Assembly: GCA_005406025.1 (NCBI GenBank)
Contig: BGZK01000095.1
Location: forward strand, 124,001 to 188,000
Length of the DNA stretch: 64,000 nt
Direction: 5' to 3'
From: Eumeta japonica
Taxonomy: Eukaryota; Arthropoda; Insecta; Lepidoptera; Psychidae
Numbering within the stretch: position 1 is the stretch's first letter; each line of letters begins with the position of its first letter. The notes below the pieces were generated by a model. It ran no database searches and had not been told where the DNA came from. It saw only the letters and a list, made by a program, of their open reading frames with translations. Below are positions 9,201 to 37,199 of this stretch, piece by piece. The position numbers and the translations under genes were made by a program.

Positions 9201-12200
9201 AAAATTAAAACCACTATGTGTATTTTGAACTTTTTTGGCGTCCTTAAGCCTCGGTTACTATGAAATTAGCTATATATTGCACGCGAACAAAAACCTTTGG
9301 ATAAAAACTTGCTTCATCTTCGTATTTCTGTCATTAAATATCGGAAAAACCGTTTTACTCAAGGAAAGCTACACTATCCCCAAATAATATAGTCCTAATT
9401 TTCTTTTGATGCTACTAACTTTTGCTACTTTTGCGTGCGAATCAGAATTGTGACTGGTTGTAGAATCGAAATTGCATACAACACAAGAAATAAAACAAAA
9501 AGTCGAGATCAGGATCGAAATCGACAATGAGCCCAAAGTAAAACTTAATATGGGACCAAAATTAGAATCAATAGTGTGAACAAAATCGGGATGAGATGCA
9601 GTATTGAAATCAAAATTTAAAGCTGAACGATATCGAGAACGGAATCGAAATCTTCGTAGATCCAAACCGGAGTCGGAATCGAGAATGAAAGAAATTGAAA
9701 TCGAGAGCAAGAATGGGATCAGAATGGAAAACGGGACAGCGATCGGGTTCTTGATGTCATTATGGGGCTGTATACAAGATGAATGAATTCATTTTGAGTC
9801 TGCGCGGGCGGAGCGGCGGGCAATAGCTAGTCTTGTAAAAAATATAGTTTAAGCATCAGTTACCTGCGCTATAAGAGCGGCCGTCACGTCGACTTCTGGC
9901 TTATCCTTGTGCGGTCGAGTAAAATATTCAACATTACCCCAAGTCTGGGCCCAAATGTTGCCTGAAAAAATGAGCATTTTGATCAATTTTCCTTAATTCT
10001 TAAATTTTCAACTACATTTGCTACTCATGGATAACTTCATTTTATAAATAACAATTAACTACAATTTAATGAATAGTGCTAAAATGGAAACAATAATATC
10101 TGAAATAAGCTTATTAGAAACAGAACATAGATATACGATGTTTTCGACCCATCCAGCCGTAATAAATATTGTAAGAGAAAAATTTCTTTCATATTTTCAA
10201 AAAAAAAGTATATATTATGTATATTAATTACCTCGTACCCATAATGCAAGTCTCGTTGCATAGTTTGAAACCAGATAGAGGTATGTATACAGAATGGATT
10301 TTATCATGTATCTTTTCGCAAATATTTATAATAGCCTTCTCTTTTAGAACAATATAACTATAACAGTAATTGAAATTATACTTATAAATAATATAAACTA
10401 ATACAGACACAACCCTAATAAATCCTAAGTCAGGCTGCAAGTGCGGCCGCGATCGGTTGACCGACCGCGCAGCGTGCTGCGGCGCAGTACCTAAGCGTCA
10501 AGTGTTTTAAGTCTGTCAGTACGACATTTCTAGGTAAATATTCTATCTTAATACAATGATTATGGTTTCTTTAGCAAAATTGCTTTATAAGGAGAAAAGA
10601 TTATGAATATTTACGAAGAGATACATGATAAAATCCATCCTGTATATGTCCGGAACATACAATTATTACGTTTTGCGATGTCGAACAAAAACAAATTTAA
10701 TGACTAGAAAAACTCTCCCCTTGACTGCTTTGCGAAATGTGCCAGACTATGAAGTCAGTCTTATGATTGTATAACTTAAAGGTCTGTGCAGACCTTACAA
10801 ATCAGGGAGACTTGCGTACAGTGATTTTTGTTCCTGACAGGGGGGAAAAGTTATCATCATCCACAATTTGAAGGTAAGTTACGTTTTCACTTACATTTAG
10901 CCGATTAGATTCAGAATGAAAGAGTTTCATTAGAGAAAGAACTGCTAGGTACGTCGATTATATTGAGCTTCAGTCCTTGATAGAATAGCTAATTGCTACA
11001 TCGGTAATAGATTGATATGACTGACGACACTTGGATTCGGGATTATCGGCTATACTTACCGATGTAACAAGTTTCGAAACTAGGCAGCGGTATTTGGTCG
11101 TTAACGTTTTCGCTTCTCAATCACGGCACGTATATTTGCACCGAAATGCTCCCCGCATCTAGTCGGGACAAAGCCGAAAAGACCTTCTCTTACTTTGCCA
11201 GTGTCCTCCAGAAGTAGTAAGCTTTTTGATTCTTGCGACGACTATATACCGCGACTAGGTTCACGCCTTATTCCACGAAACAGTGAAAGCTGACTCGAGG
11301 AGTCTGTTTCGATTAGATTGTACAAACAAATTTGTTGTTTCTGTCTAAACATTTCTGGGGATTAGGCGTGAATTCGTAAATGATAAGAATTGTTGTATAA
11401 TTGATTTGATTGCGAAAAGTGAAATTGAATAGCTGCAATACACATACGAATTTAGAGATAATTCCGTTGGCCCACTCTTCCCTCTCCTCCTTCTGTCAAC
11501 CTAATCTCCCTCTATCAGTTATCGTATTCCCGGTAACGCATTAGTGATTCTTCTTAGATTACGACTATCATTGTCGGTGGTGATAATCTACTCTCCAATA
11601 TGTCGTCTGCTCGTTTGCCCTTCGTCGATACCATATAAAGAAAAATATACTTTTTTTAGAAGAAGACAATTAAAAAAGATTTTAATACCTAACAGATGCG
11701 CGGGTATGGGTCCTCTGGCCGGCACGACTTCGTCGCCGTACTTGAGCCTCAAGTGTCTCCGCACGTACGCATGGATTTGCAGATACAAGGGCTTGACTTG
11801 ACTCCATAAGGTCGCGAACTGCACTTCGCTGTCCGAGGCCTCGTATTCGCTCAACCACCATTCGGCGGCGTTGTCATAGCCTGAAACATGTACGAACTAA
11901 TACCAGTTGCTTCGTTTTTTACCTAGAGACATAAAATACTTGCTTTTTTTGTTTATCTTTTCTGTGTTAAATATTCGTGTTACATAAAATTAAAATATTA
12001 TGTAATGTTTCAAGTATGAATTGAGGCGTTGAAATTTCTATATATGTATGTGTATGTATATATGTAACGTCAGTCTGTATATACAATTTTTTTTGCCAAA
12101 TTTCGTTATATGACTTATTGACCCCAATTCGATCTTTTTTAGAATCTATATCTTTCTGTCATTCTATCTGTATTTCTGTCTGCCTGTCTGGCTGACTGTC

Positions 12201-15200
12201 TATCTGTTTGTATGTTCTTTTATAATAAGAACGGTTTGACCGATCTTGATAAAAATTGGACAGATGTCGTGTCAAGCGCATTACTGAATAATGTTTCACG
12301 CTTGCCGTTATTATCGACAATGATCAAAATTATCGAATATTGCTAGTCCAGATATATTCGTTTAAGCAACATAAACGAATTTTCCACGTCGTGCATGAGC
12401 AAGGCAGGCTATTTGGTTTGTAAATGAAAAGCTACTTTCATGTCTTGCCAATTATCTAGGTAATCTATTTTAGCAGTGTGTGAAGGCTTATATTATTACA
12501 GTATTTACTTAATGTTTTTGTCATGTAATTACTTGGAAACGGGGCCAGGACGCAATTTGCAACTAGTATCGGAGTTGCGAGCGAAATTGAAACCAAGATA
12601 GGTGTTTGAGTTCGATGTGCAGGAGGAGAACGTTTTCGGACGAAAAATACACGCGACAATTAGTCAAGCTTTATGAGATTTCTATTTATTAAAAAATCTT
12701 TCTCTCAGTATCGTATTTTTTAAATGCAAAAAAAGGAAACTAGATCAATAGCGACAAGGTCCTCCTGGCGTGAAATCCAATTTACACTGAATTCCATACA
12801 CAAAATATTTATGAGATTATTGGTACAATATTAGTATATGTAAAAACAAAATAACGCAAATTAATGATAATCCTTATTTCAAAATCAATAAAAACGCCAT
12901 TGTGGAGCATAAACAAGCCGTGCTATGTTTCGGAATAGTGGTCGCGAGCGAATGTGATCAAACGGCTTTACACCGAGCATTTCGGCCTGAAAATATATTA
13001 TTTATGATCGCTTGTGCCTATGAGCCAGGCGTGTTCTAAAGGCATTAAGTTAATAATGCCGATAAGTCTATCAGGAGGGTTTGCAACGGAAATCCTTATA
13101 AGCGTGTGTGTGTGTTCAATTCCATTTTACACACGCACACACACACATATATATATATATATATAATGGAATAGAAATTTTATGCGGCAGATCGATATCG
13201 AAAACGTGACTGAAATCGGAATATGAAGCAGTACCGTGAACTGAATTGAGAGCGGGATCTGATTCGGAATCTAATGAAATCGAGACCGATTAAGCAATCA
13301 AGAGTGGGTCCATGATTGGGAGAGTAAGACAAACTGACATCGAGAGCAGAACTGGGGCCAAGATCGAGGGCGAGAAAGTGATCGTGATCATGACTAAAAT
13401 CGTGATAGGTCGAGCTCACGCGGCCGAAAGCTCACGAGCTTTCCATTTACAATCTGATGCCTCGTCCTAATTGCAAACGTTTCGTTTCGTTATTGAATAA
13501 TAATTCTGGACGTACAAGTCCGATTAGCACGTGGCCCATTTCTGTTTTTAATGTGTTGAGTTAGAGTTTACTTCTAAAATTTATTTAATAGCAACTGTTA
13601 GATGTATTTTTAAATTGTCATAGATTGTGAAGTCTATCGGCAATAATAAAACTAAGTATGGCATTATTCATCCTTTCTTTTAAGTGAGTTAACGAAACAA
13701 GAAGGATTCTCTTGTTTTAAATAATAAACAGAAGAATAGAGGCGATTCACTATGATATAATTATTCTGACTGTAAACGCCTTTTCTCAATAAATAAATCT
13801 GACTAGGTTCAAACGATAGAACGAAGTATAATGATATATAATAATTATTGAAAATAATGTATAAATACATTCTATGAGACGTATCAAATAATTACTCAGG
13901 TATCTTTTCAAATTCTCGTTTCATTAAACAACAAGCACATCTGATCGTATACGAAGCATTAAAACACTGCTTCTATTCTTTTACCCAATCGAATAATTAC
14001 CGTTCAATTTAGCCGCTTCGTTGTTGAGCTGGACGTACTCGGTGAAGTTGCCTTTAGAAGCGGCCCCAGCCACGCGGTGCCACTCCAACCAGGCGTACTT
14101 TAGCTCCTCCGGGTCCTGACTGGTGGCAAAAATGTTGGTGATTTCTGAAAGTGAACGCCACCTGTCAGTTTCTAATCAAGTCAAATGAAATGACACGTTT
14201 CGTGTATCGAAGAGCACATTAAGCCGTCGGGTCTGGACTTCGGCACAACCTCATTCGAGACGGTCGTTATTCAATGGGTGATACACACCTGATACAACAA
14301 CGAGACGTTAGTTTTTTGATAAAAGGTACAGTTAAAATAGGTATCTTCGTCATATAAAATAATTCTATACAAATTGAACTTAGAACATTTTATAAACGGT
14401 AACAATTGGTCTGAATTTTCTATCACAAATTGGTATACATAAGCCAATATATTCTAAGAGACGTATATTCATTTATGATGTTAATGAGCCTTTTGATTTT
14501 CTTGGATAGTATAGGTTATAATTACTACTAATGTGCATAAAGTTAAAAATACTTATTAATATTATAAAGTAAATCAATAAAATATATGATTTTGTTGTAC
14601 ACCCAAAAGGATACAGCAATAAACAAGGCAAGGCAAAGAAAGTATCGGGTGCGATCCGGTCGACTGACGAATTGACCGATGAGTGTTTAACTTAGTCAAT
14701 TTGGACCACTCGTTTCGCTCTGTGCCTCCGAGAGCGGCACTCGGAAATTGTCATCGTACGGCGATAACGTGCGGCTATACCTTACCCGCGTTGGACTAAC
14801 ATCTAGGTTGCATCTAGGCCGACTAAGTTAATGTCCAAGCGGTGGGATGCTGACAAAGCAACCTACAAGTTTCTTGGTCGTTACTCTCGAGGAAGAACTT
14901 CTGGTTTTTAAACGAACAGTAAATTCATAAAATAGTTGATGTTTTACGTTATCACTTATTAAATAAAGACGATTTGTTTAATTATATCTTACAAGAATAT
15001 TCTCGCGAAACATGTTCTCACTTCATATATTCTTAATAACAATGGAACAAAGATAATTCCATATTTTGATTGCGGATGGATATGTTAGAAACACTAATCA
15101 ACTAAACAAAATAATTTCTCCCAAAAAGCTTATATTTTTCGAGCTAAATATAAATTTTAATTTCTTATTTAAGTCGCCGTGGTTTATCAAAGCATTGCAT

Positions 15201-15748
15201 ATTATCTTATTTTCGATACACTCGAGTTCTGTTAATTTTTATAACAAAAAATAAAGTGACAAGATTTTTTTATATGAAATTTTATGCTACACCATTTTTA
15301 TTCATAACTTTTTAGCAGATTTTACTTTACAGGAGTAATCTTAAGAGAGGCCCTTTATCGAGGCTTGCAAAAATGTTCGTTCACGTCAAGTTTTCAAATG
15401 CTAAGTGTAACTTATATCAAAGATTCCTTCGTTTCCTCAAAAATGTTCATCTATTTAAAGGCGTATTCTATTTAACAACACAAGACTATGGTCAGTTGGT
15501 CACACTGCCCACGCACGTATATTTTAGCTCCGCTTTTTGTCAAATTTGACGTGAAATCACCTACTCCGCTACTCGGCAGGCTATATGTGTGTATTCAATT
15601 TCGGTTTGTACAAAACTGTAAATGGAATCACTACGGCGCCACTCAGTCTTATTACAAAGTGTTTTTAGCTTTACTTTCTATCAAAATAAAATGGGACTGA
15701 CTATGCTACGAGTAATATATGTGCGTGTGTGTGTGTGTGTGTGTGTGC

Positions 15749-15791
<43 letters not shown>

Positions 15792-18737
15792 TGTGTGCGT
15801 TTGCGTGTTTGTGTTTTCTATAGAGGTAGGAAAGTACATTTACATATCATCAGGCTTTCTCTTGGCATGTCGAACTCAAAATGTTAATACCAACTAAAAA
15901 ACCTCCCGTGCTTCCGGCCTCTCAATAACCGTGGAAACCGCCGTTAGGCATTACTTCGTGGGAGTGTGAGTGCCTGTGTGTGCGTGTATATGTGTGCGTG
16001 CGCGTGCGTATGTATTCGTGTGTGTGCGTGTGTGTGTATTTAGGTCAATACATAGACTGACTAAATCACTACGCACATGGATTTAGGTTGGCTTTGTATG
16101 AAATCGTAACTGAGATCACTCGACGCGGCACACATGCTTCTAACGTGTATTTAACTTCTGTTTGTACAGAAATGTGAATTGCTCACATGCGGTTTGGATA
16201 CGCCACGCACTGAAGTGTGCTTTGTTCGTGACTAACTTGTGGCGAGTTATCGTCGGTGCTTATTTGTCGTCGAAGGCGCATCAGCTGACACGAAAGCATG
16301 GTAGTGTTCGGATTTATGAATAGGATAATAGCGGTTCAGATTGTTTAAATGTTGACAGCTATATTAGCCTATAATAACAAGAGAATTAGGATTACAACAG
16401 CATATAATACCATGATATGGTTTAAGTTATTACCCAGAACTGTTAATTTCTTTTGTTTTTCTTGCAGTAATTGTAATACGTAAATGCAGTAAATCTAATA
16501 AGTAAAGAAGCTACATACCCGGTTCCACGTGTAGGTCGCATTTGTTACGATCTTTGTAGTCGCAAATCGTAGCTTTCGCGTAAGTCGATTGCATGTTACT
16601 GATAGCCTGTATGAGTCTTTGATTTAGATCTTCAGGCAAAGCTGAAGTCCCTAAAATTGTGTACTTCTGGAACATCCTCTTGAGGTCTTCGTCTTCGAAT
16701 TCGTGCCAAAGATACGACATCGTCTCTTTCCAGTTCTCCTTCTCTTCTTCGGCCACTTCTAATGACACTATCATCTGCAAAATCGTTAAAGTATTGTCAG
16801 AGTGGGATTAGTGATTTGAATACAGTATTTATAAAATATGTACTGTGAAACTATTATAATATGGCAAACATATTAAAGTAATATTCTAAAATAAATAGCT
16901 TTCACCCAAAATTTTGCCCGAATTGAGGTAGAATGAATGTGTCTATGTCGGCCCGATTTCGAATGTCAAACGCGATAAAGTTTAAATATTAAAAAAATTT
17001 TATAACCTTTTTTATAAATTTATAAATACTTTCACCTATGAAATACATAGAGAAGTGATTATGGCGTACATATGCTATAATAACTTTTAGAATTGATTTT
17101 CTATGTTTCTTAATACAGGCATGTGTATCAAGAAATATAGAAATCAATTCTAAAACTTAATTCTAAAATAATAGCACAGTCCTTCTTAGCATTACAAAAT
17201 AATTACCATCTGCTCCTCGTTGTACGCCGTCATATTGCTCTCGTAGGCCCAATTAGCCAAGGCCCTTTTGTTCTTGGCCTGTCCCACCTTCTCGTCCAGC
17301 TTCAGGATGTACTCCCTGCCGGCCGCCTCCTCGGCCGCCCTCTCCTCGGCACGACCCTGCGCGGCCACTATGAACACGGAGGCTATAGCCCCCACTAGCG
17401 CCAACTCCCCGCATATCTTCATTATCATCTGTAATGAATATATTCAGTTAAAGGCGGTGTGTCCGTTAAATGGCGTAAATTCATTTTTTTAAATCCAATT
17501 ACGATAAATTCCTTGAACTTGAGGAACGACATATCATACAATAAAGTGATAAAAAATTAAAACCACTTTAAAACTTATTAAAATAATTAGTCGTTTTTGA
17601 AATTGCCTGAAGAAGACAGACAAACAAAGAATAAATATAATCAATAATCATGAATACAAAACATGAAATATTGTATTAAAAATATATCAAACAATAAAAC
17701 CTGAGACACAGTTATTGTAGTTAGTTCCAGTCTATTGTTAAATTGTTTAATACATTTTTATTTTATTCACTTATTAAAATTATTTATAGTGGTTTTTTTA
17801 AAACACATTATTAATAAACGCACTAATATTTAGAATTTGAGTGCCTTATAAAAATATGGTTCAAAACGAGCATTCTCAAACATGAAACAAAATTTAGTCA
17901 TATAACTTAAAAACTGATTAATAAAAAACATTATGTATGTATACCTCAGACACCCTACACCCGTGTGAGATGAAATCGAATGCACAGAATCTTTCTCGTC
18001 GACGAAAATAAATAAATTCCTAAAGCCGTCAAAAAAAATATCGTGTCAAGGTTCTTATCGAGATCGGCGACGCGTCTGATAAAACCTATAAGTTGGCGTT
18101 GCATCACGACATAAAAAAATTGGTGAAGCGCGAATATAATTTGCGAGACTTAGATTAAAGATAAAAATACTTATTAGGTTTTAGTACGGCTAACTGTTCG
18201 ACTGGACAAGGCTTTTGAAAGGTATGGATATATATACCGAGGAAAGAGAGCGATACTAGCGGCGTTTACTTTTTTGTTACGTTAAATTATATAAATTAAG
18301 TTGATTGCTTCAAATCGGTTATAGATATTTGTGTCAACGGTATATTTATTAATAATGTATTTGTATTGTATGTGTATTTATTTATAATTACCAATTCAAA
18401 TATAAAACTTATAGTTTTGGAACTATCTAAGGATCTAAGTCAACAATTTAATTCATTTCCAATTGTGATTATTAAAATAGCAGTTACGGTTGTGTTAATC
18501 GAATTTAAGCTGTGAAGAAGGCTCAATCGATAATTAACAAAGAGATCTCATCAATTTCGATTTATACGAATTAAATACAGAACCCCAAAAACTGTACCCA
18601 TTCGCTTCAATGAACGCGTAAAATTAAGGAAAAAAATCTTACGAATTACGCAGAACACCAACCTCTATAAATACATCACCATAAGTACTTACGAACAAAA
18701 CTCTTTTGGTCGTCTCGCTGCAGTAACCGCACGGCAT
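186..18737 (-). CDS. Ance-like: Gene A: secreted angiotensin-converting enzyme-like peptidyl dipeptidase (13 exons)
   Basis: Predicted zinc dipeptidyl carboxypeptidase of the M2 (ACE) family. Thirteen exons join with GT-AG junctions into 1,989 nt (662 aa plus stop). Seen: N-terminal hydrophobic signal segment (about residues 20-40), HASA at 364-367, HEMGH at 394-398, third zinc ligand Glu422 in GFHEAVGD, Lys522 and His524 in KYH, and Tyr531, Arg533 and Tyr534. All sit at a constant +11 offset from human testis ACE numbering. Conserved cysteine pairs are [15 protein letters not shown] with KQC, and LC with SCD. There is no C-terminal membrane segment, so the product is probably soluble and secreted; insect ACEs trim short peptides outside cells. 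The length matches single-domain insect ACEs (about 615-660 aa). It lies head-to-tail with gene B. Which insect paralogue it is cannot be told here. Family call very sure; exact 5' start less so. Confidence 0.96.
1284..1602 (+). pseudogene. Cysteine-cluster tail of a repetitive arthropod ORF (fossil)
   Basis: The 1405-1602 frame encodes a tight cluster spaced CxC, Cx3C, Cx3C, CxC, Cx6C, Cx3C, Cx2C, Cx4C, including [12 protein letters not shown] associate this pattern with C-terminal tails of transposon-linked arthropod ORFs. Upstream pieces are split among frames, so it is a dead fragment. Family name not recognised. Confidence 0.5.
1620..2214. mobile_element. MITE with about 50-bp terminal inverted repeats
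   Basis: The ends at 1620-1667 and 2165-2214 are imperfect inverted copies sharing GGCGATTCTCGG, the (A/T)CATGTGGA-like block and the TCATGAGACA block. No coding capacity between them. Superfamily not assigned. Confidence 0.75.
2380..2773 (+). mobile_element. Helitron-like repeat, 3' end GCTAG/T
   Basis: Begins in a TCTGTC-rich, AT-rich body and ends GCGGGCACAGCTAG followed by T, matching the CTRR-type Helitron 3' terminus found repeatedly in this window. The 5' limit is approximate. Confidence 0.45.
3268..3443 (-). CDS. Gene A exon 12
   Basis: 176 nt, phase 2 in, phase 1 out. Encodes [33 protein letters not shown] and YIGWE, the conserved M2 C-terminal region. Donor GTTG|GTGAGT. Confidence 0.95.
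3784..4487. mobile_element. Short inverted-repeat element in gene A intron 11
   Basis: The 15-bp GGAACGAAGTTCCTT at the left recurs inverted at 4473-4487. The interior has a purine-rich block and a GC-rich segment but no credible protein. Confidence 0.5.
4714..4848 (-). CDS. Gene A exon 11
   Basis: 135 nt, phase 2 to phase 2. Opens with the codon completing Arg, then [16 protein letters not shown], where the first Tyr is the transition-state Tyr (human Tyr523). The second cysteine of the last pair is in [15 protein letters not shown]. Two codons shorter than in gene B. Confidence 0.95.
4849..6205 (-). other. Gene A intron 10
   Basis: 1.36 kb AT-rich intron. I see no recognisable repeat ends or coding homology; the short open frame at 5560-5805 looks random. 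Confidence 0.6.
6206..6420 (-). CDS. Gene A exon 10: substrate-binding KYH/VEY exon
   Basis: 215 nt, the same as gene B. Encodes [19 protein letters not shown], the insect-type YNCHFW, and [14 protein letters not shown] with the Lys and His that contact the substrate and the Tyr and Arg that support catalysis and chloride binding. The donor is poor (GAG|GTTTTA), but homology with gene B and the frame of exon 11 fix the junction. Confidence 0.92.
6964..7091 (-). CDS. Gene A exon 9: third zinc ligand
   Basis: 128 nt, phase 1 in, phase 0 out. Encodes [20 protein letters not shown], whose first glutamate is the third zinc ligand (human Glu411 equivalent). Ends INQLYKM at donor ATG|GTATAT. Confidence 0.96.
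7362..7486 (-). CDS. Gene A exon 8: zinc-binding HEMGH exon (single copy)
   Basis: 125 nt, phase 2 in, phase 1 out, acceptor ATTCAG|GATTAA, donor CCCAG|GTATTG. Encodes the active-site helix with [13 protein letters not shown], the two zinc-ligand histidines and catalytic glutamate, and GANPG. The subsite residues before HEMGH are A-F-F-I-T-T, unlike either gene B version. I found no second copy in introns 7 or 8. Confidence 0.97.
7560..7690 (-). repeat. Lepidopteran dispersed repeat fragment (CCATGGGC-core family)
   Basis: Reads on the minus strand as a decayed copy of the common moth repeat with a CCATGGGCAGCGGTGATC-like core followed by a GCTCGTTTGTCC end. A sister fragment lies at 54,540-54,740 in the opposite orientation. 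Located in gene A intron 7. Confidence 0.6.
8256..8428 (-). CDS. Gene A exon 7
   Basis: 173 nt, phase 0 in, phase 2 out. Encodes [20 protein letters not shown] and [14 protein letters not shown]. The HASA strand binds the substrate backbone, and its cysteine pairs with the one in exon 8. One codon longer than in gene B. Confidence 0.96.
8690..9832 (+). mobile_element. Helitron-like non-autonomous repeat with hexamer array
   Basis: Within gene A intron 6. An AT-rich body leads into a degenerate GAATCG-type hexamer array (9430-9760), then the GC-rich 3' end GCGGGCAATAGCTAG-T. The 5' boundary is uncertain. Confidence 0.5.
9430..9760 (+). repeat. Degenerate GAATCG hexamer array
   Basis: Purine-rich strand built from variants of GAATCG, GGATCG and GAACGG in near 6-nt register. 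The period makes short open frames encode Arg-Asn, Glu-Ser and Glu-Ile dipeptides, which are artefacts. Confidence 0.7.
9864..9961 (-). CDS. Gene A exon 6
   Basis: 98 nt, phase 1 in, phase 0 out. Encodes [10 protein letters not shown] with Gln292, equivalent to human testis ACE Gln281 that holds the substrate C-terminal carboxylate, then a charged [12 protein letters not shown] segment. Donor GCGCAG|GTAACT. Confidence 0.95.
10277..10650. repeat. Foldback element in gene A intron 5
   Basis: Left arm at 10,277-10,345 and right arm at 10,580-10,650 are imperfect inverted copies sharing ATGGATTTTATCATGTATC. About 230 nt lies between them. MITE-like. Confidence 0.65.
10651..11688 (-). other. Remainder of gene A intron 5
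   Basis: About 1 kb with near-average base composition and no recognised homology. The nearby GC-rich pocket at 10,440-10,495 has no identified role. Confidence 0.5.
11689..11880 (-). CDS. Gene A exon 5
   Basis: 192 nt, phase 1 to phase 1, acceptor TTTCAG|GCTATG, donor TTAG|GTATTA. Encodes [10 protein letters not shown], the helical LKPLY-like segment ([16 protein letters not shown]) and [10 protein letters not shown], all hallmarks of the M2 fold. Confidence 0.96.
12060..13440 (+). mobile_element. Helitron-like debris with hexamer array in gene A intron 4
   Basis: Contains a TCTGTCTGCCTGTCTGG block (about 12,175-12,215), a second segment with GAAACGGGGCCAGG wording, a TG/CA/TA microsatellite at 13,101-13,166, a hexamer array (13,185-13,410), and the GCGGCCGAAAGCT end seen in other copies. 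Probably two overlapping insertions. Confidence 0.45.
13101..13166. repeat. Compound TG / CA / TA microsatellite
   Basis: A (GT)n run, a short spacer, then (CA)n and (TA)n; the GT and CA runs can pair as a hairpin. Confidence 0.85.
14001..14144 (-). CDS. Gene A exon 4
   Basis: 144 nt, phase 1 to phase 1, acceptor TTTCAG|AAATC, donor AACG|GTAATT. Encodes [20 protein letters not shown] and a WLEWHRVAG core ending in NNEAAKLN, colinear with Drosophila Ance (DHEELAYYWREFYDKAG). Contains the NFT sequon. Confidence 0.95.
15719..15814 (+). repeat. (TG)n microsatellite
   Basis: About 95 nt of alternating TG with a few CG and TT interruptions, in gene A intron 3. The valine-cysteine open frame across it is an artefact. 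Confidence 0.95.
15963..16040 (+). repeat. Second, interrupted TG/CG-rich tract
   Basis: Alternating purine-pyrimidine GTGTGCGTGCGCGTGCG-type sequence 150 nt after the first tract. Flanking sequences of the two tracts are loosely similar, suggesting an old local duplication. Confidence 0.85.
16519..16774 (-). CDS. Gene A exon 3
   Basis: Bounded by CAG|ATGATAG and GAACCGG|GTATGT (phase 0 in, phase 1 out), 256 nt, the same length as in gene B. It encodes the [19 protein letters not shown] region and the first ACE cysteine pair (CDYKDRNKC). Confidence 0.95.
17085..17155. repeat. 71-nt near-perfect hairpin in gene A intron 2
   Basis: Arms of about 32 nt pair with two mismatches and one bulge around a GGCATG loop. 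It lies about 50 nt inside the intron from the exon 2 donor. It could be a tiny MITE or a microRNA-like precursor; the sequence alone does not decide. Confidence 0.75.
17207..17428 (-). CDS. Gene A exon 2: signal peptide and mature N-terminus
   Basis: Acceptor CAG directly precedes ATGATAATG; donor is CAGATG|GTAATT, phase 0. It encodes a hydrophobic segment with a small-residue end (AAQG) typical of a signal peptide, then an acidic helix and WAYESNMT, the insect ACE N-terminal motif with a glycosylation sequon. Two in-frame ATGs at the exon start are alternative initiators. Confidence 0.93.
17429..18692 (-). other. Gene A intron 1
   Basis: 1.26 kb AT-rich intron with no recognised repeat or homology. 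Confidence 0.6.
18693..18737 (-). CDS. Gene A exon 1 (coding part)
   Basis: Fifteen codons from an ATG with A at -3, reading [15 protein letters not shown], ending in a textbook donor (TTC|GTAAGT), phase 0. It joins exon 2 in frame. The exon continues upstream as 5' UTR with no visible acceptor. If the real start is instead the ATG that opens exon 2, these codons are untranslated leader. Confidence 0.65.
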
Positions 18738-25747: not shown

Positions 25748-28700
25748 TTTCTCTCTCTCTCTCTTTCTCTCTCTCTCTCCTCTTTCTCTCTCTCTCTTTT
25801 TGCATTTTAAACTACTCTACCGATAATTCTAAAATCTAACCAGGTGATCTTAAAAAACAATATAGATTGTCGCAAACTCAGTTTGTTCATTCCAAAGGTA
25901 TAGATAGAGAGAAACTCTAAGAAAAAGTATTTTTTTCAAAGTAACATGTGAAATTCTTGATGGATTGATATTTGGTACTTGATCTCTTTCTGCTTACAAA
26001 ACTGCGTCGAATACTGTAGAGCAAAATCAAAATCGGTCACCTCGTCGTGATTTATGATACGTGATGTACAATTAAAACTACGATATCAACGATTGAATAT
26101 ATCGTAGTTCAAACATCAAAAAATAGCTTGTGTTAACTTCCCGCTTTGAAAATTGAAAATTTTTATAAAATAGGAAAACAGTCCGAATTTGTAAAATCAA
26201 GTTTTCATCACATCTTGTCGTTTAACGGTCCTAGGAAGTCATTTCGATCATTTTCCGAGTGATTTCTCTACGTAAATTTTATAAAAGTGTTTTTTAGAAT
26301 ACTTCTTAAACTACTCTACCGATAAATTAAATATTAAACATAATTTGTTACGAATCGTGAATAATTGATTATATTCGAGTCTAAGATTAGTATTAACTAT
26401 TAACTTACTTATTCACTTCGCCTTCTTAGAAGTGACTTAATATAGACTAGGTATGCCGATGTCGATTCCATCTGGAGATCGTTTTCTGGACTCATGTAGA
26501 CTGAGCTTCAAATAAACCTCGCCGTACTCACGGACTACGCTGGGCTCCCAGCCGATGTGTTCGCCGGTCCGTTGGTTTTCGGCCTTTAGCCACTCGTACA
26601 GGGGCTTGAAATACTCGAGCAGGCCGTCGGCTCTCATCTCGCGCTGCCCCGTCAGCGCCTCCATCGCGTCGGGCCAGGGGCGCGACGAGCCCATTTTCAG
26701 CATATTTCTGTAACAGTTTTGTAACATTCTAGGATTACCAGCCTTTTCAATTACTCTATTAATATTCTGATTTATAATTAGTAAACAACATTAAATCGAT
26801 ACATTTGCCTCACATTACGCATTAGAAAAGCAAAAAGCACAACGACACTTAATACTTGAAAATCTTGCGGTTTCATTTCTTCAGTCCTGGTTTCAGTTCG
26901 TCACAATGCGTATTGGTGACGTAAGAACATCTTATGAATTTATTTTAAAAAACTAATACTTGTTTCAAAAAATATCATGAGATAATAATCTCCCACTGGC
27001 CAGATGACATTACTAAGTGTCAGATGAGATTCGATCTGCCGATTCGTAAAGTATTTTTATCAATTTCATATTAATGAAACAAGTTACTTGATATCATATT
27101 CATATGTTTTTTTTGTGATGCTAAACTTAGAAAGCATATTTCACAATATTTTTCATTGAACAACGTTTTAAGTTTATTTATTTCTAATAGATACACTATC
27201 GAATATTGGCAAAATATCAAAATCATATTTTTTGGCGCCAAATTTTTACTTATCAAATTCCCTGTTATGAAATGTAATACTTCGATCCAGCTTGGCGCTA
27301 CCTTCGAGCTAAAACAAAGTGATTCCTTTGAGACTTCTAACATTTTTTCGAATACATTAAATAATCACAATCGTATATAATGTGTGTAATTTGCAACAAT
27401 CCTATTAATTATATACACTTTGTTGAATTTTACTAATTCGCTCGCGCTGGGGATTTTATGTCTGTACAATGTTTATATTTATTTCTTCGTATGATTAACG
27501 CAACCTAATTATTTAACAAAATATGATTTAAATAAAAATATTTCCCCTATCATAAAACACTCTTGATGTTTTGTTAAAAATGTACAAGCAAAATATTATT
27601 ACATTTTAGATACAAACTCATTCGGGAGCGGTTTATTCGTAACTAGTTTAATCAAAGCACCTCGTTTGTAATGACAATGTATTCTGATGGCTTTGTAGTT
27701 GACTGTTAAAATGATAAACAAAGATGAATTCCAAAACGGCCCTGGTCACTCACCCCAGAGCATTTCCCGCCTCAACGCTCTGATAGATGTCGCAGTCGAC
27801 CAGTTTCTTGTTGGGGTCGTCGGGCGCGTACTCGCCGGCGAGCCTGCACAGCGCGCGATGGAACTGGAACTGGATGATGAACGAGACGTAGTACCTGTCG
27901 AGGATAGAATCGGTGAAAGATACCAAACGTGTCCAAAGTTAGGAGGACGAGCGAAATCTTTTTGGGACAAAAGAGGCATTTTTTGGGAAGCTTCAATTTA
28001 TTATACCTTTTCAACTACGTCCAATATTTCATGACTAATAATTAAGTATATTCGATATGGCAGTACACAATTCTATTAACATTTCGATAATTACATATAG
28101 AAATTAAACAAGCGATGTCTGCTAATTAAATATATTTAATTAACCATACTTTAAAAGACCTAGTTAAAACGACTTGTGGCTTCTGTATACCTTTACTAGT
28201 TAAATCGAGTTCTTCAGAGCCATGTAAACAAATAAAAGAATACATATTGCTCTTGTATTGTTGTCTGCATAATAAGAGTTTTATAAACCTAACCTTGTTC
28301 AGCTAATTATCCTTTAAGGAATTTTTCTGACCTTGCATATTCTACGTCGGCCGAGACGTGATATTTGGCAGCAGCGTCGAAATCCTCCTCGGTCCGGTTG
28401 ACCGGCGGTTCTACACCCTGGAGCATCTCTCGGAGGTGCCAGAAATGGCAATTGTAATCATCTGGACTGGTAGTACCACGGAAGACTCCATAGCGGAACA
28501 AGTCCAATGTATACGCAAACGGCAGAAACACAATCTTGTCAATGCCCTACAAAAAAAATATAAATATACAAATCTGAGAAATATCTCAGTACTGTATATA
28601 GAGTTTCTAGAACCTGTTTTACAAAGATTAAATTGCATCTTAATATTTGTTATGTAAAAGGAAACATTATTCTACGAAAGAATAAAAATAAAATAAAACA

Positions 28701-31700
28701 ATTCTTTATATTCTGTTCTTAAGAATCCATATATTACACACGACAGCATCAAACGCCTTAGGCTTTACTATTTGAAAAGTGAGTTTCACAATTTTTTTCT
28801 CTCAAGTTCATGGCTCGTACTCAATTACTCTTTGACAGCGAGCCAATAATCACTTGCGTTGTATAAGTTAACATAAGCGTCATTTATGACGTAAGAAAAA
28901 CAAATGATATGAACACGACAGCAGTCCATGACAAAAAATGTGTTTCACTGAAAAATAATTTGGTCAAATCCATTCACTTTCAATTTACTCGAGAAAGTTT
29001 TTTTCCGTAAAAATAACAAGCGGGTCAGCTGTGACAGACATCACGTAAAGTCGTCAGCGACTATGTCCTCGTGTTTACTGAGGAAGGATCGAGGACCTTT
29101 ATGAATGTTCAAAGTGTAACTATGAAAGTCTGAGATACAAATAGTGTCATAATAAGTCAAACGAATAATACCATTTTATACAGTTGATTTATCTCGGTTT
29201 GCTCGTCCTCTGCGTCGCCGCTCGACAGCCCAACGCGTCTCAAGTGCTTCGGCGACGAAACGGACAACGCGATGGTGTCACCGACGGCCTCGTGGAAACC
29301 TTCGAACGACAGAGTCGATTTTAATGGATGCCCTCCGAATTTATTGAGTAGAAAAATAGAAGATATGTCTTTATTTAGAGAAGGCAACAGAAGATAGATT
29401 TTGATTATTATCGCAAATCAGAAAACATTTCAAGACATGCTATGAGACAGAAAATTTTTTGAGACAAGCATGCCTGTACAGATATCGTTTAGTGATTATG
29501 TCGTTGTAAAATGTCTTATTTTGTGAAGGTGTAAGATACTAAAGGCAAGTATAATGCATTCACTTCAATTAAAAATGTTTTTAAAATTATCCTATTTCTC
29601 GTTCTCAATATGAACGTGAAACGCGTAAGTTATATACAAGGAAAAGGAATATTTTGTAAAATTTTAATACAACTAACGCCTGTCACAATCAAACTATCAA
29701 TGTGTTAGTTTGACCATAAGAGTTAAATCCTTATAATTACATTATGGTGCAAATGAGAAATGAAAAGTTGCGAAATATAAGTATAATTGCTGACAACATT
29801 TTCATCAATTTAATTAAAGATTTTTTATAGTCTTGTATAAAGGACGTTAATTAACAAGCATTCATACATTTGTATTAAAATAGTTTTATCATATTATGAG
29901 ATATAAATGCAGTTTACACAGAGCTATTTTAATAGGTTTAGTTGGTAACCATTCACATAACTACGTTACATTATTAAACTAAACTATTCTATTGAGTAAG
30001 CATAGTAACTGAGAAATTTGAAATTAATTAACTGGCCATACTTAAGGTATTGTTAGTGCCTTATAAATGAGGTTAATTGAAGTGCATTCACACAATTGCA
30101 TTGAAATAACTTTCTCATATCCATACATACAATGCACCGGTATCAGAGCCATAGAGCTCACCTGGATTCGCTCCAGCTCGAAATACGACAGGCTGATTTC
30201 TATATTGCAAATAATATTGTATATGGCCCATCTCATGATGCACTACCCTCAAATTTTCCATATTCACCACCGTACACATTTTGATCCTGCATTCCAGAAA
30301 ATAAGTTTAATTGTAACAGATATTATAACGTTTACCTGGATTCGCACCATCACGGAATATCACTGGTTGGTGTCTGTATTGTAGAAAGTACTGTATGTGA
30401 CCCATTTCATGGTGTGCCGTTTGGAAATACTCATAGTCAATAACGGTGCACTGTTTGATCCTTAAAAATGAAGCGAAAAAATTACTTAAATATTAAAATC
30501 TTTCACCAAAAATACTATATGTTTAATGAGCTCTAACGTAACTACAAGATATTAATTAGCTTTTATGATTGAATTCATACGCACATACAACACATATGTA
30601 ATATTATCAAAAGCTAAATGTCTATTGTATAACATCTTTTCAATCGTCGCTTTTTTTATGCGGATATAAAAATGTACAAGGTTGGAGAAAAAGTATTTTA
30701 CGTATTTCATATACCAATTCAAGATCATTTTTCATCATATTTTATTTACACGTAATATGGTACCATTTTATTCAACAAACTGTTGCCATTTTGTAGGTAG
30801 TGATACAATCCCATTGTTGTAGAAATTTTGGGACTTCTGATCAAAAAAGTGTGACAAGTAGTTTTGTCATTCCCGTGTCAGTCCCCTGTCTACCTAAAGA
30901 ATTCACCTAAACAGGTAAAATCTAAGGTTGCAAGGTCTGAGCTATATGTTAGATGTATTAAAATTTCCCAACCAAACTCTCTCAATATTTGCTGAGTGGC
31001 TAAAGATGTGTGGAGTCTGGTGTTGTCATGGTGAAAAATCATACCCATTCTTTAGATCAATTCCGGCCGTTTTTTCTCTACTCTTGCTTGAGACTCATCA
31101 GCTGTTGATAATAGAGTTCCGAATTAATGGTTTAGCCCGGCGGTAGTAACATATCATAATTAATGAGGCATTATCCCCAATCCCAATCCCAAAATATCCA
31201 ATCCCACCATACACATAGCATCAGCTTATTGTGAATTAATACGGGTTTTGTAATAGTCTCTGGAGCTTGCTTGCCTTATGACTATAACCTTTTTCGCACG
31301 TTCTTGTCGTAGGTAATCCATTTTTCATCACTAGTACTCAATCTTTTCAAAAACGGTTCGGTTTCATTACGTTTCAATAGAGAATCGCAAATGAGTACAC
31401 GATTATATACTTCTTTCAGTGAACTCGTATGGGATCCGAGTACCAGCCTTTAAATGGGTTAAAACGCAGTTTCCAGCTTTTCAGTTATGTCGTAAGAAGT
31501 AATATGCCTATTTTCCTCTACTTTTTCCAAAATAGCATCGACTTTATCGGTAGCAGGTCGACAGAGCGAGGTTCATCTTTGATATCAAAATAATCAGACT
31601 AAAAAAACTTCAACTAGTTTTGTGCTACGCTTACCGACACTACATTAGATTCATAAATGTCACAATATTTTTTGCAACTTCAGTTGCTTTTTCCCTTTTT

Positions 31701-34700
31701 TGTGATAAAATTACAAAATTTTTCGAATTTCTAAGTTAGATTCACTCATTTTGATGGACAGAAAAACAATAGGAAAATTGCAGGACGCCGTTTTTCCTTT
31801 TCATTTTTTTTAAATGACATCTAATTAGTGGTTTCAAAACTAGCCAGATACAAACAACACAACCCAAAGAGATTTTATTGCAAATTTTTACTTAAAAATT
31901 ACGAAAAAACTTTTCCCCAACTTATTATTACTTGATAACAATTTCGCACTCGATCTTGATCTCTGTAAACGTATCGTTAAGCTGAAAAGATCCACGTCTT
32001 CGCGTCCCTACCATCAACGAACCTCGTAGACTCGATGTTGAAGCTTAGAGCAACTAATGAAATCATCGTCGATTCTGCCATTAAAATTTCTAGCTACATT
32101 CACTAGACCGCTACGAAAAAGCACAATGAATAGGATATATTTATGTCGACAGTACTTAGGCCTTATGTATTACTGTGAATGTACCGTCTGATATCAATAA
32201 CAATTTCCAGTCAGTAATATGAATACGAAAAGCTACTAACACTAGAAATTGAGAAACACTGATATGAAAATGTTAAACAACTATCGACGTCTTAGATGCC
32301 TGTCGATTGATGCTTCGTCTATGGTCACCAAATCAATATTCAGTGCTCAAGTGGTGTAATAGTATATATCTATGAACATTTCTGTAGCTCGTCATTAATA
32401 GTTTTAAATATTTGGAATCTGCTCGACACTTTTCAGTATCTTTAATAGCATGCACAAATAAAACCCCAATATTATTGATTTTAATTCTTGAAGAAACTAC
32501 GATACAGTTAAAATCGAATCAAAACCGACTTACCGACCAAAATAAACACAAATACGATACCATGAAGAGTGCAAAAAATTTCGGGCTTGTTTATTAAAAT
32601 AAAATCGTTAACAGCCCTTAAATAACTAGAATTACAAATCGTTTAAGACAAGAAACTAAAGGATACTAATTGTACTAATCTCAAACGTTGTGCAACAAAT
32701 CGTCAAGGGCAGAACCTGTACATGTTAATTCTATCCAATCAGCTTTAATAATATGTAATCAATTTAATTCGAATGCACGATCTATGGCGCCTGGCACAAC
32801 TGTCATGCCCGGAGGCCACGCATCGGCGCCGTAGATCTTATCGACCATAGAAATATATGCAGTAGTCCCAACCTACCTGAAATCCTCTCCGTCGTAGAAG
32901 TCCCATGCCGACGCGTGGCACACTATTTCCCGGTCCGCCGGCTTTTCGATGATGGAATTCTTCCAGAACAGTTCGGGCATAGCGGTCAAATTGAGCGAAC
33001 GGAAAAATTCATCTGACATTTGAAACATCTTTAACGCTGTATAGTTCTGCGAAAGTGATTTATTTCATTACTAGAGATGTTTAGGTATTTGCAGCAGCTT
33101 AATGACTACATTGTAATTTTTGTTATGGTCTAAGTCTTAAATATGTTTCTGTTTATTATTTTCACCTGGTCTTTCATAGCTTGCGTGATGTCCACTTCGG
33201 GCTTGTCCGGATAAGGCCGGGTGAAAGATTCAATATTGTTCCAGGTTTGCGCCCACATATTACCTAAATTAAGATAAATTATGATATTTACATTTACTGT
33301 CGAAGTGCTAGGACGTTCTAATCTTAACTTGAAATTCAGGGTCTCCTACCCAAGCATGTGTAACAATAATTTTTTCAGATATTTCAGACACACTTAACGC
33401 GCTAACATCGATCAGCGGCCTGTACGGGCTCACATGACGCAGAACTGGCAGCAGTGTTCAAAGAGGCATGATAATAATTAAAATTTCTACTTACTTATTT
33501 ACTTATAGTGAAATATTATAAGAATCCAATTGAAAACTTTTTGTTAATAATAGAACAATATTAGGTAACAATGACTTTGTCATAGTCTTATAATTCCAAT
33601 TTTCAATGTCGTAACGTTATCAGTAATATACATTTCTAGTAAAGGTAGATACACATTGATTCATACTTAATATGAATGTACATATTATAAAAAAAACCAG
33701 TGTTATATCCTTTATAATTAAATATTCAAGCAACTAATAACAGAGGATAACGTAGCCAATTTTCCCTTAAAAACAGGAAAAGGTTAAATAAATTTCGCTC
33801 CACACGTATAATACACGACGTGTCGTATATCAATTTTAAACGGAGTTATAAAATCTATATCAGAATAGGAGGATAATGATAACAGCCATTAAACTCGACA
33901 AACACAGGCATGAAGCGACTAACCGTCGTTTATTCAAGATTGAATACATTGCATACAATAATGTAAAATGATCAATTAAATTAAGTTAAAAATATGAAAA
34001 ACTGTAAATGAACATTCATATTAGATTTGCTGATAAAGAAAATATTATGTTCCTTGAAAACCTGAAAAAAACATTTAGCCACTTAAAATTCTGTAGTATC
34101 AATTTCTCATGCATTGTGTATTTGACTAATCTGTCTATTCATATATCTAAAACATTCATGCTTTGGATATTTTTGCAGTTACTTATAAAATAACTTTGGT
34201 ATCCATTATTGTAGAAGTATAATACATAACAATTTTATTACATATTACATTTTTTCTTAAGAAAAAGAATAAGTACTTTCTTAATTAAATAAGTAAAAGA
34301 ACATAAATAAACTATCGAACGCGATTTGAAGCGATTCCCATCAAGTTTATAATTCAACAGTGGTCACGCACAGCGCCGGCGTCGACAGACCTAAAAGGTG
34401 GGCCGGGATCGGGCCCCGCGCGGAGACGACGTGATCGCCGTATTTGTCGCGCAGGCGCTTCCGGACGTACGCGTGCATTTGCTGGTAGAGCGGCTTGAGC
34501 TCCTCCCACAGCCTGGCCAGCTGCTGCTCGAAGTCGGGCACCTCGTACTCCGACAGCCACCATTCGGCCACGTTCTTGTAATCTGCAATCCGATTCTATT
34601 AGATGTGACCGGAGAACGCATTAAAATATCTAAAGCTCTGCGCCATAATAGATTTGAGTCCATTATCCGTACGTACTTACCGTTGAGTACGGCGGCCTCG

Positions 34701-37199
34701 TTGTCGAGTTCCACATATCGGGTGAAGTTGCCCCTCGCGCGTGCGCCCGCCGCTTTATGCCACTCCACCCATGCGTGCTTCAGTTCTTCTGGATTTTGAC
34801 TTTTGGTGAATATTTCCGTAATATCTATAACCGAGAAAAGTCTTAATGCTTAACGTGTAATTTTGTTTGTACTCTTTCTACAATGTCTACGAGTAAATTA
34901 AAATTCGAGAAGGCGCTAACTATACATTGAAGTGCAGCGCGGACAAAATTCTCGCTTCAAGTTATCTGTCATTATTTAAATTCATTAATCATATAACGCT
35001 TTACTTGAACTATCGTCGAAAAAAAACAACGACATCTTGTATTTACAAAATTTCGTTTTTGTTCTTTTCCTTATAACGTTTTATATTCCAACTCAGAGTC
35101 ACTTGTGTATGTATATATCGGAATGTAAATAACGGAATTAATGATTTGGGATATATATATTTGTGGCCTTAAATTATGTTGTAACCGAGCCCTTAATATT
35201 TTTGGGATATATCTAGCAGCCAATATATTCAAATCAGTAGTTTGCCTTGCGCCAAAGATATTCAAACTACAATCCTAACTACAATTGATTTTTAGTCAGC
35301 AGAGACACAATCGGACAAAAAACGTCTATCTATTGAAAACCATTAATCAACCATGCATCCACCCAATCACCCAATGATAGAGCACTTCCTTTTCAGAGGC
35401 AGATACAGTTCCGAGTTCTGACTCGACAAATGAAATATAGCGAATAGCGAACAATTATGAACATTGTAAAATTATCTAAACTTAAATAAAGAAACTATTG
35501 AAATGCGTGTCCAAAATACGCACCGAAGGCTCCTTACAAACTAAATTCCTTAAACTAAATTCTATTTGTATGCAGTTTACAAACTAAACAGAAAATCCAA
35601 GTGAATAAATACATATGTTTTTTTTTTATTTTCCTATAAATGCTTTATTTACAGCTCCGTTTTGTTTTTTCGTAATATATATCAGACTTTTGCATTATTA
35701 CAAATTGTTATTGACGAGGGTCGGCTTATAAATATTGGTAGTAATATTTGTAATCTGTATTTTACACTTTTTTTGTATTCAATGTTACGAATTTTTATTT
35801 ACGTAAAATTCTGAATTAAATGATTATAGATAAACAATTTTTTAATATTTGAAGCAGATTCGTTCAAACTATGATCCAAAAAGTATATATACAATGAAAA
35901 GAAAAGTTTTAGATTTACGAACTCGATTAGTGAATGAAAATTTACTTAAATGTAGAAAAAAATCTTTAAAATTCCCAAAAATTTAATTTATCCAATTAAT
36001 CTTAATGAATTTGAATAAAAAAATTTGAAAGTATTTTATCGACAGCTTTTTCGACTTAGTGAAAAAAACAACCACACACACGTATGGACAATAAACACAC
36101 TGAAGTCTCATCGCAAACAATAATTTTGAACCTATTAGATCGGAATGAGATACAAGTGAAGATGTAATCTAGCCAATCCAATTGTTCGACATGACTAACC
36201 ATCGGCCAATAACGTACTCACATGAAATGTAATTATATGAAACTAATGCGAGACAAACACTCACCTGGCTCAAGCTCCAGATCGCATTTATCCGGATTCC
36301 CATAAGCGCAAATCTTCGAAGTGGCATAATTAGATTCCATGTCGGATATAGTTTTGATTAATTGCTCGTATTTGTCGTCTGGCAGCGCAGCGACGCCCAG
36401 TTGGCTGTACTTCTTAAACATCCTCCTGAGCGTGTAATCCTGGTAGTCCTGCCATTGGAACATCTTCGTCTCCCCCCACGCCGCCTTCTCTTGTTTTGAG
36501 ATTTCTAACTGGATCTGTATCTGGAATATTAAAACGAAGAAGAATTTTGTGGAAAGGCACAACTGTTGTTGTGTCTAATAAAAAATGCATTCTCGTTTAG
36601 CTGGAATAATCTCAAGACAACGGTAGCAAAATACGCTTGCTAAATAAAGCTTGTTTTTTTTTTTTTTTGAAAAGTCGGAAAAAAATTTATTTTACAATAT
36701 ATATTTCATCTCCTGAAAACACAATGCGACGCGCATTTATTTTGAGATCTATGCCCGTTCGAAAACAAACTATTAATGACAACGAACAAAACGAGTTCCT
36801 GCTCTAAACTTGTCTAAATTATGGCATATTTTCAAAACAACCACAATTTTGCAAAATAAAAGCATAAATTCTAACAGATTGTACGCATGGAACTACCAAT
36901 AACATAAAAAAAAAGTTTTCTCTTCCAAAAATAAAACATCATTTTCCTTAAGTGAGTCTGAATCACCACCTCACACTTACCTTCTTTTCCTCGTTCTCTT
37001 TAGTGATGTTGGACGTGTAATCCCATTCAGCATGACTCGCTCTATTTCTTCTCATGCCGGTAAGTTTATCTAATTGTGTTATGTATTCTCTACCTTCGTG
37101 TTCTAAAGCCTCCAAGTCCGGATCTCTACCTTGAGTCGCTACAACGAACACGGCCACGATCGCCGCCACCAGGGCAGCGGCCCCGCCGACTTTCAACAT
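24857..37199 (-). CDS. Ance-like: Gene B: secreted ACE-like peptidyl dipeptidase with duplicated zinc-site exon
   Basis: Second M2-family ACE-like gene, paralogue of gene A. Using one exon 8, the coding exons total 1,947 nt (648 aa plus stop), all in frame. Seen: signal peptide ending ATQG, HEMGH at 377-381, third ligand Glu405, HASA, Lys505 and His507, and Tyr514, Arg516 and Tyr517. These match human testis ACE at a constant -6 offset. The three ACE disulfide pairs are present, and there is no membrane anchor. Exon lengths equal those of gene A except for small indels in exons 7 and 11, an exon 2 coding part 3 nt shorter, and a different tail in exon 13. Unlike gene A it has two alternative exon 8 copies. 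The protein should be secreted and enzymatically active in either form; natural substrates cannot be deduced. Confidence 0.96.
24940..26531 (-). other. Gene B intron 12
   Basis: 1.59 kb intron holding a long TC microsatellite and AT-rich DNA; no coding homology. Confidence 0.7.
25690..25800 (+). repeat. (TC)n microsatellite, (GA)n in the gene B transcript
   Basis: About 110 nt of CT repeat with CCT and TTT interruptions. The leucine-serine open frame across it is an artefact. Confidence 0.95.
26532..26707 (-). CDS. Gene B exon 12
   Basis: 176 nt, acceptor TTACAG|AAATAT, donor GTCC|GTGAGT. Encodes [33 protein letters not shown] and HIGWEPS. Confidence 0.95.
26708..27753 (-). other. Gene B intron 11
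   Basis: 1.05 kb AT-rich intron; no recognised repeat or homology. Small opposing open frames at 27,071-27,380 look random. Confidence 0.6.
27754..27894 (-). CDS. Gene B exon 11
   Basis: 141 nt, phase 2 to phase 2, acceptor TCGACAG|GTACTA, donor CTGGG|GTGAGT. Encodes [20 protein letters not shown] and the [17 protein letters not shown] segment with the last disulfide cysteine. Confidence 0.95.
28332..28546 (-). CDS. Gene B exon 10
   Basis: 215 nt. Encodes [25 protein letters not shown], and [14 protein letters not shown]. Donor GCAAG|GTCAGA is better than the gene A equivalent. Phase 0 in, phase 2 out. Confidence 0.95.
29172..29299 (-). CDS. Gene B exon 9: third zinc ligand
   Basis: 128 nt, phase 1 in, phase 0 out. 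Encodes [20 protein letters not shown] with the zinc-ligand Glu, ending INQLYKM at donor ATG|GTATTA. Acceptor TTCGAAG|GTTTCC follows a modest pyrimidine tract. An open frame runs upstream through this acceptor but has no ACE similarity there. Confidence 0.94.
29300..30161 (-). other. Gene B intron after exon 8b
   Basis: 862 nt AT-rich intron between exon 8b and exon 9; it forms part of the longer intron removed when 8a is used. I looked for a third exon 8 copy and saw none. Confidence 0.6.
30162..30286 (-). CDS. Gene B exon 8b: alternative zinc-binding exon, downstream copy
   Basis: 125 nt with the same phases as 8a, acceptor GAATGCAG|GATCAA, strong donor CCAG|GTGAGC. Encodes RIKMC, the specificity stretch VNMENLRVV, intact [13 protein letters not shown], then [14 protein letters not shown]. 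Its VVNMENL and VVHHEMGH wording is closer to the vertebrate enzyme than 8a is. No stop or frameshift is seen, so it looks functional rather than a dead exon copy. Confidence 0.95.
30287..30335 (-). promoter_or_regulatory. 49-nt spacer between alternative exons 8a and 8b
   Basis: Read on the minus strand it begins with the 8a donor (GTAAAC) and ends with the 8b acceptor (GGAATGCAG), with a short TTATTTTC pyrimidine run between. At 49 nt, donor and branch point are closer than most metazoan spliceosomes tolerate. Direct 8a-to-8b splicing is therefore probably blocked. The exons are seen; the steric block is inferred. Confidence 0.7.
30336..30460 (-). CDS. Gene B exon 8a: alternative zinc-binding exon, upstream copy
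   Basis: 125 nt, phase 2 in, phase 1 out, acceptor TTTTTAAG|GATCAA, donor CCAG|GTAAAC. Encodes RIKQC, the specificity stretch IDYEYFQTA, intact [13 protein letters not shown], then [14 protein letters not shown]. Both zinc histidines, the catalytic Glu and the disulfide cysteine are kept. It is 30/43 identical to exon 8b. It must be used instead of 8b, because including both adds 125 nt and shifts the frame. Confidence 0.95.
30677..31925 (-). mobile_element. Mariner-family DNA transposon, inactive copy 1
   Basis: About 1.25 kb between terminal inverted repeats of the form GTTGGRGAAAA, flanked by TA target duplications. Minus-strand translation gives mariner transposase pieces, including the catalytic [14 protein letters not shown] block near 31,010-31,055 and the C-terminal [17 protein letters not shown] near 30,790-30,840, with many stops. 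It lies in gene B intron 7, 217 nt before exon 8a. Confidence 0.9.
31926..32876 (-). other. Gene B intron 7, exon 7-proximal part
   Basis: 950 nt between the mariner copy and exon 7. No third HEMGH exon and no recognised repeat. Confidence 0.6.
32877..33046 (-). CDS. Gene B exon 7
   Basis: 170 nt, phase 0 in, phase 2 out. Encodes [20 protein letters not shown] and [14 protein letters not shown]. The phase 2 end is completed by the first G of either exon 8 copy. Confidence 0.96.
33166..33263 (-). CDS. Gene B exon 6
   Basis: 98 nt, phase 1 in, phase 0 out. Encodes [10 protein letters not shown] with the substrate carboxylate-binding Gln, then [12 protein letters not shown]. Acceptor TTTAG|GTAATA, donor GACCAG|GTGAAA. 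Confidence 0.95.
33264..34390 (-). other. Gene B intron 5
   Basis: 1.13 kb AT-rich intron without recognised features. Confidence 0.6.
34391..34582 (-). CDS. Gene B exon 5
   Basis: 192 nt, phase 1 to phase 1. Encodes [36 protein letters not shown] and [10 protein letters not shown]. Very GC-rich compared with flanking introns, which opens long spurious reading frames on both strands. Confidence 0.96.
   Translation of the reverse strand: MTRTWPNGGCRSTRCPTSSSSWPGCGRSSSRSTSKCTRTSGSACATNTAITSSPRGARSRPTF
34681..34824 (-). CDS. Gene B exon 4
   Basis: 144 nt, phase 1 to phase 1. Encodes [27 protein letters not shown] and the GNFTRYVEL sequon region. Donor AACG|GTAAGT. Only 98 nt separate it from exon 5. 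Confidence 0.96.
34825..36264 (-). other. Gene B intron 3
   Basis: 1.44 kb AT-rich intron; nothing recognised. Confidence 0.6.
36265..36520 (-). CDS. Gene B exon 3
   Basis: 256 nt, phase 0 to phase 1, acceptor ATTCCAG|ATACAG, donor CCAG|GTGAGT. Encodes [26 protein letters not shown] and the CAYGNPDKC disulfide loop. A second possible acceptor 6 nt further in would drop two residues; the gene A alignment favours the longer form. Confidence 0.94.

Follow-up and report, generated by a model that had tools for sequence, protein, structure and literature searches.

Can a single insect ACE gene make two different peptidases by exchanging the exon that carries its zinc-binding helix? The question is raised by a stretch of 64,000 nucleotides of Eumeta japonica (contig BGZK01000095.1, positions 124,001 to 188,000), hereafter the window, which contains two ACE-like genes. 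In a preliminary description of this DNA, one of them, gene B, had been said to hold two adjacent 125-nt exons on one strand, with equal phases, canonical splice sites and an intact HHEMGH, and all of these features were found at the same positions in the present analysis. The exons are called 7a and 7b here, since the exons numbered 7, 8a/8b and 9 in that description correspond to 6, 7a/7b and 8 in our model, from which a leader exon is probably missing.

Gene B encodes a predicted single-domain ACE

Gene B was built from eleven coding exons, running from 37199 to 26437, from its open frames and splice sites and from its likeness to ACE (Table 1). A leader exon probably precedes the ATG because an AG sits 3 nt upstream of it, and, given this AG and the donor-like site in the last exon, both ends of the model are provisional. 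Judged from its predicted protein, gene B is an ACE gene of the M2 peptidase family, insect-like and with a single domain. Peptidase_M2 (PF01401) was matched over profile positions 4-581 of 581 both by the 7a form (832.2 bits, 3.1e-250) and by the 7b form (837.4 bits, 8.1e-252). HHEMGH is intact in 7a and in 7b, and GFHEAVGD, with the downstream Glu zinc ligand, spans the junction with exon 8; both gene B forms share this Glu, as well as CHASAW, KYHV and YARYY, in intact form. Against the PDB, the 7a form scored best among single-domain matches with 6s1y (780.4 bits, residues 52-619), which we take to be Anopheles AnoACE2, followed by the group of 2x92, 2x8y and 1j36 (738.3 bits and less), presumably Drosophila Ance, and by other ACE domains. 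No C-terminal anchor was obvious by eye in the gene B protein. Near the active-site CHASAW segment, exon 6 is one codon (a Gly) shorter than in gene A and in the PDB relatives compared.

Table 1. Positions of genes A and B and of their features in the window.
Feature	Position	Strand	Remarks
Gene B exon 1, coding part	36981..37199	-	signal-peptide-like N terminus, by eye
Gene B exon 2	36265..36520	-	
Gene B exon 3	34681..34824	-	
Gene B exon 4	34391..34582	-	
Gene B exon 5	33166..33263	-	
Gene B exon 6	32877..33046	-	upstream partner of 7a/7b; ends ...GATTTCAG
Gene B exon 7a (previously 8a)	30336..30460	-	125 nt, encodes 41 residues
Intron between 7a and 7b	30287..30335	-	49 nt, GT...AG; probably not long enough for 7a to be joined to 7b in the ordinary way
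Gene B exon 7b (previously 8b)	30162..30286	-	125 nt, encodes 41 residues
Gene B exon 8	29172..29299	-	downstream partner of 7a/7b; begins FHEAVGD, third zinc ligand (Glu)
Gene B exon 9	28332..28546	-	
Gene B exon 10	27754..27894	-	
Gene B exon 11 (last)	26437..26707	-	to TAA; internal GTGAGT donor-like site, C terminus uncertain
Gene A	3230-17422	-	tandem ACE paralogue downstream of gene B; 631-aa model, same exon plan

Apart from the two genes, the window holds several repeats. A broken mariner-like transposon relic lies in intron 6 of gene B (approximately 30690-31910, minus strand), where the minus-strand frames are full of stops; the label rests on motif pieces within these frames. Three plus-strand ORFs in or near this relic had no Pfam match. 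Two arrays with a period of 31 nt (51164-51222 and 52284-52342), the units of one being the reverse complement of those of the other, stand about 1.1 kb apart and are perhaps the ends of a mobile element, and a 69-nt repeat unit (51326-51457, 1.9 copies, 89% matches) is located between them. Viral contigs gave no match, and Rfam gave 0 matches at gathering scores.

Exons 7a and 7b are homologous and each restores the frame alone

Exons 7a and 7b are adjacent homologous exons of equal length and phase, identical at 82 of 125 nucleotides and 28 of 41 residues, and both are entered after a split codon. The acceptors read ...tttttaag/GATC in 7a and ...ggaatgcag/GATC in 7b, and the donors CCAG/gtaaac and CCAG/gtgagc, respectively. 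Their splice scores are similar (donors 5.4 and 5.4; acceptors 10.4 for 7a and 9.3 for 7b) and lie within the spread seen among the other donors and acceptors of genes A and B (19 of each), the donor scores being low, with only 2 of the 19 other donors scoring lower. As had been claimed before, one exon restores the frame while both or neither break it: 7a alone or 7b alone, together with the ten other coding exons, gives an open frame, joining 7a to 7b leads to a stop after 408 residues, and skipping both leads to a stop after 366 residues. The full-length enzyme is thus open with either exon, at 652 aa in our provisional model and not the 648 aa given earlier.

An 18-base pattern for HHEMGH, with up to 3 mismatches allowed, matched four times in the window versus 0.73 expected, a number reached by none of 100 shuffles; three of the four matches are exact, namely 7a, 7b and the corresponding exon of gene A. 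In a scan with a profile itself built with both exons, E-values were 1.5e-30 for 7a and 2.7e-31 for 7b. No third or relic copy of the zinc-helix exon was detected in the window by this profile, which yielded 7b, 7a and the gene A exon and then an E-value of 0.51. A chance or pseudo-exon origin was rejected by the pattern count together with the divergence pattern and the kept invariant columns described below. It is hardly credible that the assembly set two alleles or gene copies side by side, as the exons differ at 34% of their nucleotides, their likeness is limited to the exons and a few flanking bases, and the neighbouring exons are without a second copy except gene A's own.

A short intron and a frame shift would keep the exons apart

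The intron between the exons, which the preliminary description did not mention, measures 49 nt versus 98 nt for the next smallest intron in the models of genes A and B. With a donor-to-branch-point limit of about 50 nt (PMC5740500 and PMC7969005, excerpts), any branch point inside it falls within this limit, and joining of 7a to 7b should therefore be sterically hindered; we infer the exclusion from this size limit. One weak yTnAy match is present in the intron, at a distance of 34 nt from its donor and of 15 nt from its acceptor end, which leaves the branch point uncertain. In 629 human mutually exclusive clusters, a distance of less than 50 nt from donor to branch point was found in 57 (9%) and a frame shift as lock in 377 (60%), although joined exons were nonetheless seen in 83 of these 377 (22%) (PMC5740500, excerpt). 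The criterion used there is that reads splice each exon past its neighbour while the neighbours are never joined, or joined only with a broken frame. Close branch points keep exons 4a and 4b of OGDH apart (PMC7969005, excerpt). Since human introns of 43-65 nt do splice, including one of 49 nt in NDOR1 (PMC8363638, excerpt), this length is no absolute bar to splicing. The frame shift is a second lock against 7a and 7b in one message. We propose that, with an intron of 49 nt, the distance from the 7a donor to the branch point would be below 50 nt, leaving 7a and 7b unjoined, that 7a-7b joining or double skipping would break the frame ahead of the third zinc ligand, and that the mRNA would then be either 6-7a-8 or 6-7b-8.

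Intronic RNA pairing of the docking-selector type was also searched for, in the single sequence and with Watson-Crick pairs only. The best 24-nt pairing had 21 matches, which 2 of 20 dinucleotide shuffles also reached. Docking elements were rejected, as the strongest inverted repeat (29654-29677 with 30948-30971) did not exceed shuffles, and its pairing would place both exons in the loop.

Both exons look selected

Saturation is seen at the synonymous sites of 7a and 7b, where the estimate is 24.8 changes for 23.8 sites, and 18.2 changes were estimated on the 99.2 non-synonymous sites. The exons differ at 13 of 41 residues, versus a mean of 26.2 and a minimum of 20 in 2000 neutral simulations started from 7b with the same extent of change as observed, of which 418 remained free of stops. 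Five other ACE segments, from four PDB domains and gene A, share 21 columns without variation; all 21 are kept by 7a and 20 by 7b, whose sole departure is Met369, a residue also present in 9 of 11 bacterial M2 rows. With 22 or 43 changes, none of 3000 neutral runs from either exon both kept at least 20 columns and stayed free of stops; with 15 changes, this was achieved by 1 of 3000 runs from 7b and 10 of 3000 from 7a. Both exons also keep the ten columns that are invariant across 16 rows (5 animal and 11 bacterial), the 11 bacterial M2 loci having been taken from 15 pattern matches in prokaryote genomes for the conservation comparison only.

Since the invariant columns are kept in a way that simulated neutral decay rarely matched, both 7a and 7b look selected, and not like one live and one dead exon. 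We consider it quite improbable that one is a silent or dying duplicate and the other alone is used. The single zinc-helix exon of the tandem gene A would be in line with such a duplicate, and very recent disuse of one exon would leave no trace because the divergence is saturated; against this, both exons retain nearly all invariant columns, their phase and their splice sites, without stops.

The swapped residues point to a probable change of peptide preference

By testis-ACE numbering, H383, E384 and H387 lie in the swapped segment, while E411 is encoded by the constant exon 8. The numbering is anchored on Cys370 of testis ACE and agrees with V379, V380, F391 and E403 in a human-ACE study (PMC7148434, excerpt). 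Thirteen positions differ between 7a and 7b: 369, 373, 374, 375, 377, 378, 379, 380, 381, 391, 396, 400 and 403. In human ACE, the N-domain selectivity of inhibitor 33RE was abolished when eight N-domain residues were exchanged for their C-domain counterparts, and five of these eight positions (376, 379, 380, 391 and 403) fall in the swapped segment (PMC7148434, excerpt). At four of the five, 7a and 7b carry different residues (379 Gln/Arg, 380 Thr/Val, 391 Phe/Tyr and 403 Asp/Ala), which is only mildly above chance (hypergeometric 0.028) for positions that are variable across the family, and position 376 is Glu in both. In a listing of subsites, 380 is assigned to S1' and S2', and 391 and 403 to S2 (PMC11880972, excerpt). 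Exon 7a is like the human C domain in S2 (Phe, acidic) and like the N domain at 380 (Thr), and 7b has Tyr at 391 as in the human N domain and Val at 380 as in the C domain. The segments of the human N and C domains are unlike at 12 columns, and at nine of these 7a and 7b are unlike as well; the overlap arises partly because these are variable columns of the family, and columns 392 and 400 of the human C-domain row are provisional.

The two predicted enzymes would share their body and catalytic residues and would be unlike in residues of the pocket next to the HExxH helix (379, 380, 391 and 403). These pocket differences would confer a different peptide preference, so that a single gene would parallel the two domains of human ACE; a change of preference between the 7a and 7b forms is likely from the residues exchanged. 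The earlier proposal of two catalytically competent forms likewise stands as likely, because no damage is seen in the zinc ligands or in the further active-site segments inspected. It is unlikely, if somewhat less so than a silent duplicate, that both exons are used and one form is no ordinary peptidase and acts as a weak enzyme, a decoy or a route to message decay. At position 379, neither the Gln of 7a nor the Arg of 7b occurs in any of the 16 compared rows, six residues of 7a and five of 7b are unseen there, and a message with 7a and 7b joined would yield a stop; on the other side, HExxH, the exon 8 Glu, CHASAW, KYHV and YARYY are all intact, and all but HExxH are common to both forms.

Taken together, we hold it highly probable that 7a and 7b are a true mutually exclusive pair in an insect-like ACE gene, which would switch its peptide preference. 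The mutually exclusive reading given in the preliminary description is supported by the phase, the frame locks, the splice sites and the selection on both copies, to which the 49-nt intron is now added; it is drawn from a single genomic sequence and from the internal logic of that sequence.

Gene A and the age of the pair

The tandem gene A contains a single zinc-helix exon (7362-7486, minus strand). Seven of its 11 coding exons equal their gene B counterparts in length (256, 144, 192, 98, 125, 128 and 215 nt), exon 7 included. Its zinc-helix exon is identical to 7a at 80 of 125 nucleotides and to 7b at 69 of 125, compared to 82 of 125 between 7a and 7b. In a tree of 43 residues, the grouping of 7a with the gene A exon was best, and neither the grouping of 7a with 7b (AU 0.21) nor that of 7b with the gene A exon (AU 0.083) was rejected by the AU test. 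Val372 and Arg395 occur in both 7a and 7b and in none of 16 other rows, a sharing that points away from the best tree. The order of the exon and gene duplications is not fixed by the 43-residue tree. By these comparisons, the pair may date from about the time at which genes A and B split, and it is old whichever duplication came first; being old, it should occur in related species if it is real.

Meaning and comparison with known systems

We think it possible, with a confidence that does not quite reach even, that one insect ACE gene yields two active peptidases of different specificity through a swap of the zinc-binding exon, as an alternative to the two-domain ACE of vertebrates, and that, given the possible age of the pair, this arrangement could be common across that insect group and under the control of tissue, sex or stage. 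If true, it would be a natural experiment on ACE specificity, with enzymes identical but for 13 residues around the zinc helix, including pocket positions tied to human domain-selective inhibitors. The counting and the knockdown of such ACE genes would also change, with one gene model standing for two enzymes.

Mutually exclusive exons are a well-known kind of arrangement, enzymes such as OGDH included. The preliminary description knew of no such case for ACE, and likewise no report of mutually exclusive exons in ACE was found in the open-access full-text literature among the matches listed. When printed insect ACE sequences were sought by the string HHEMGHIQY in open-access full text, the only matches were, by title, on human ACE or ACE2. 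In the excerpts of the paper on the Anopheles ACE family, no active-site exon pair is described, and 'splic' is absent from the main text of that paper (PMC1325048).

The gene B pair can be set beside three known systems. The Anopheles AnoACE family likewise has tandem single-domain ACE genes, and AnoACE3 has two transcripts; however, these variants differ in the first exon (PMC1325048, excerpt), whereas the gene B pair affects the active-site exon. OGDH, whose exons 4a and 4b are one of the sterically enforced mutually exclusive pairs, is also an enzyme gene with adjacent alternative exons; its branch points lie less than about 50 nt from the donor (PMC7969005, excerpt), as would any in the 49-nt intron of gene B. 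Its exons set calcium sensitivity and its branch points are mapped, while the exon of gene B carries the catalytic HExxH and has a candidate branch point placed by motif. Human somatic ACE shares with gene B the presence of two versions of the active-site segment with different pocket residues. In the human enzyme, the N and C domains lie in one polypeptide as a result of duplication (PMC1325048, excerpt), whereas gene B would yield a single domain in two predicted forms.
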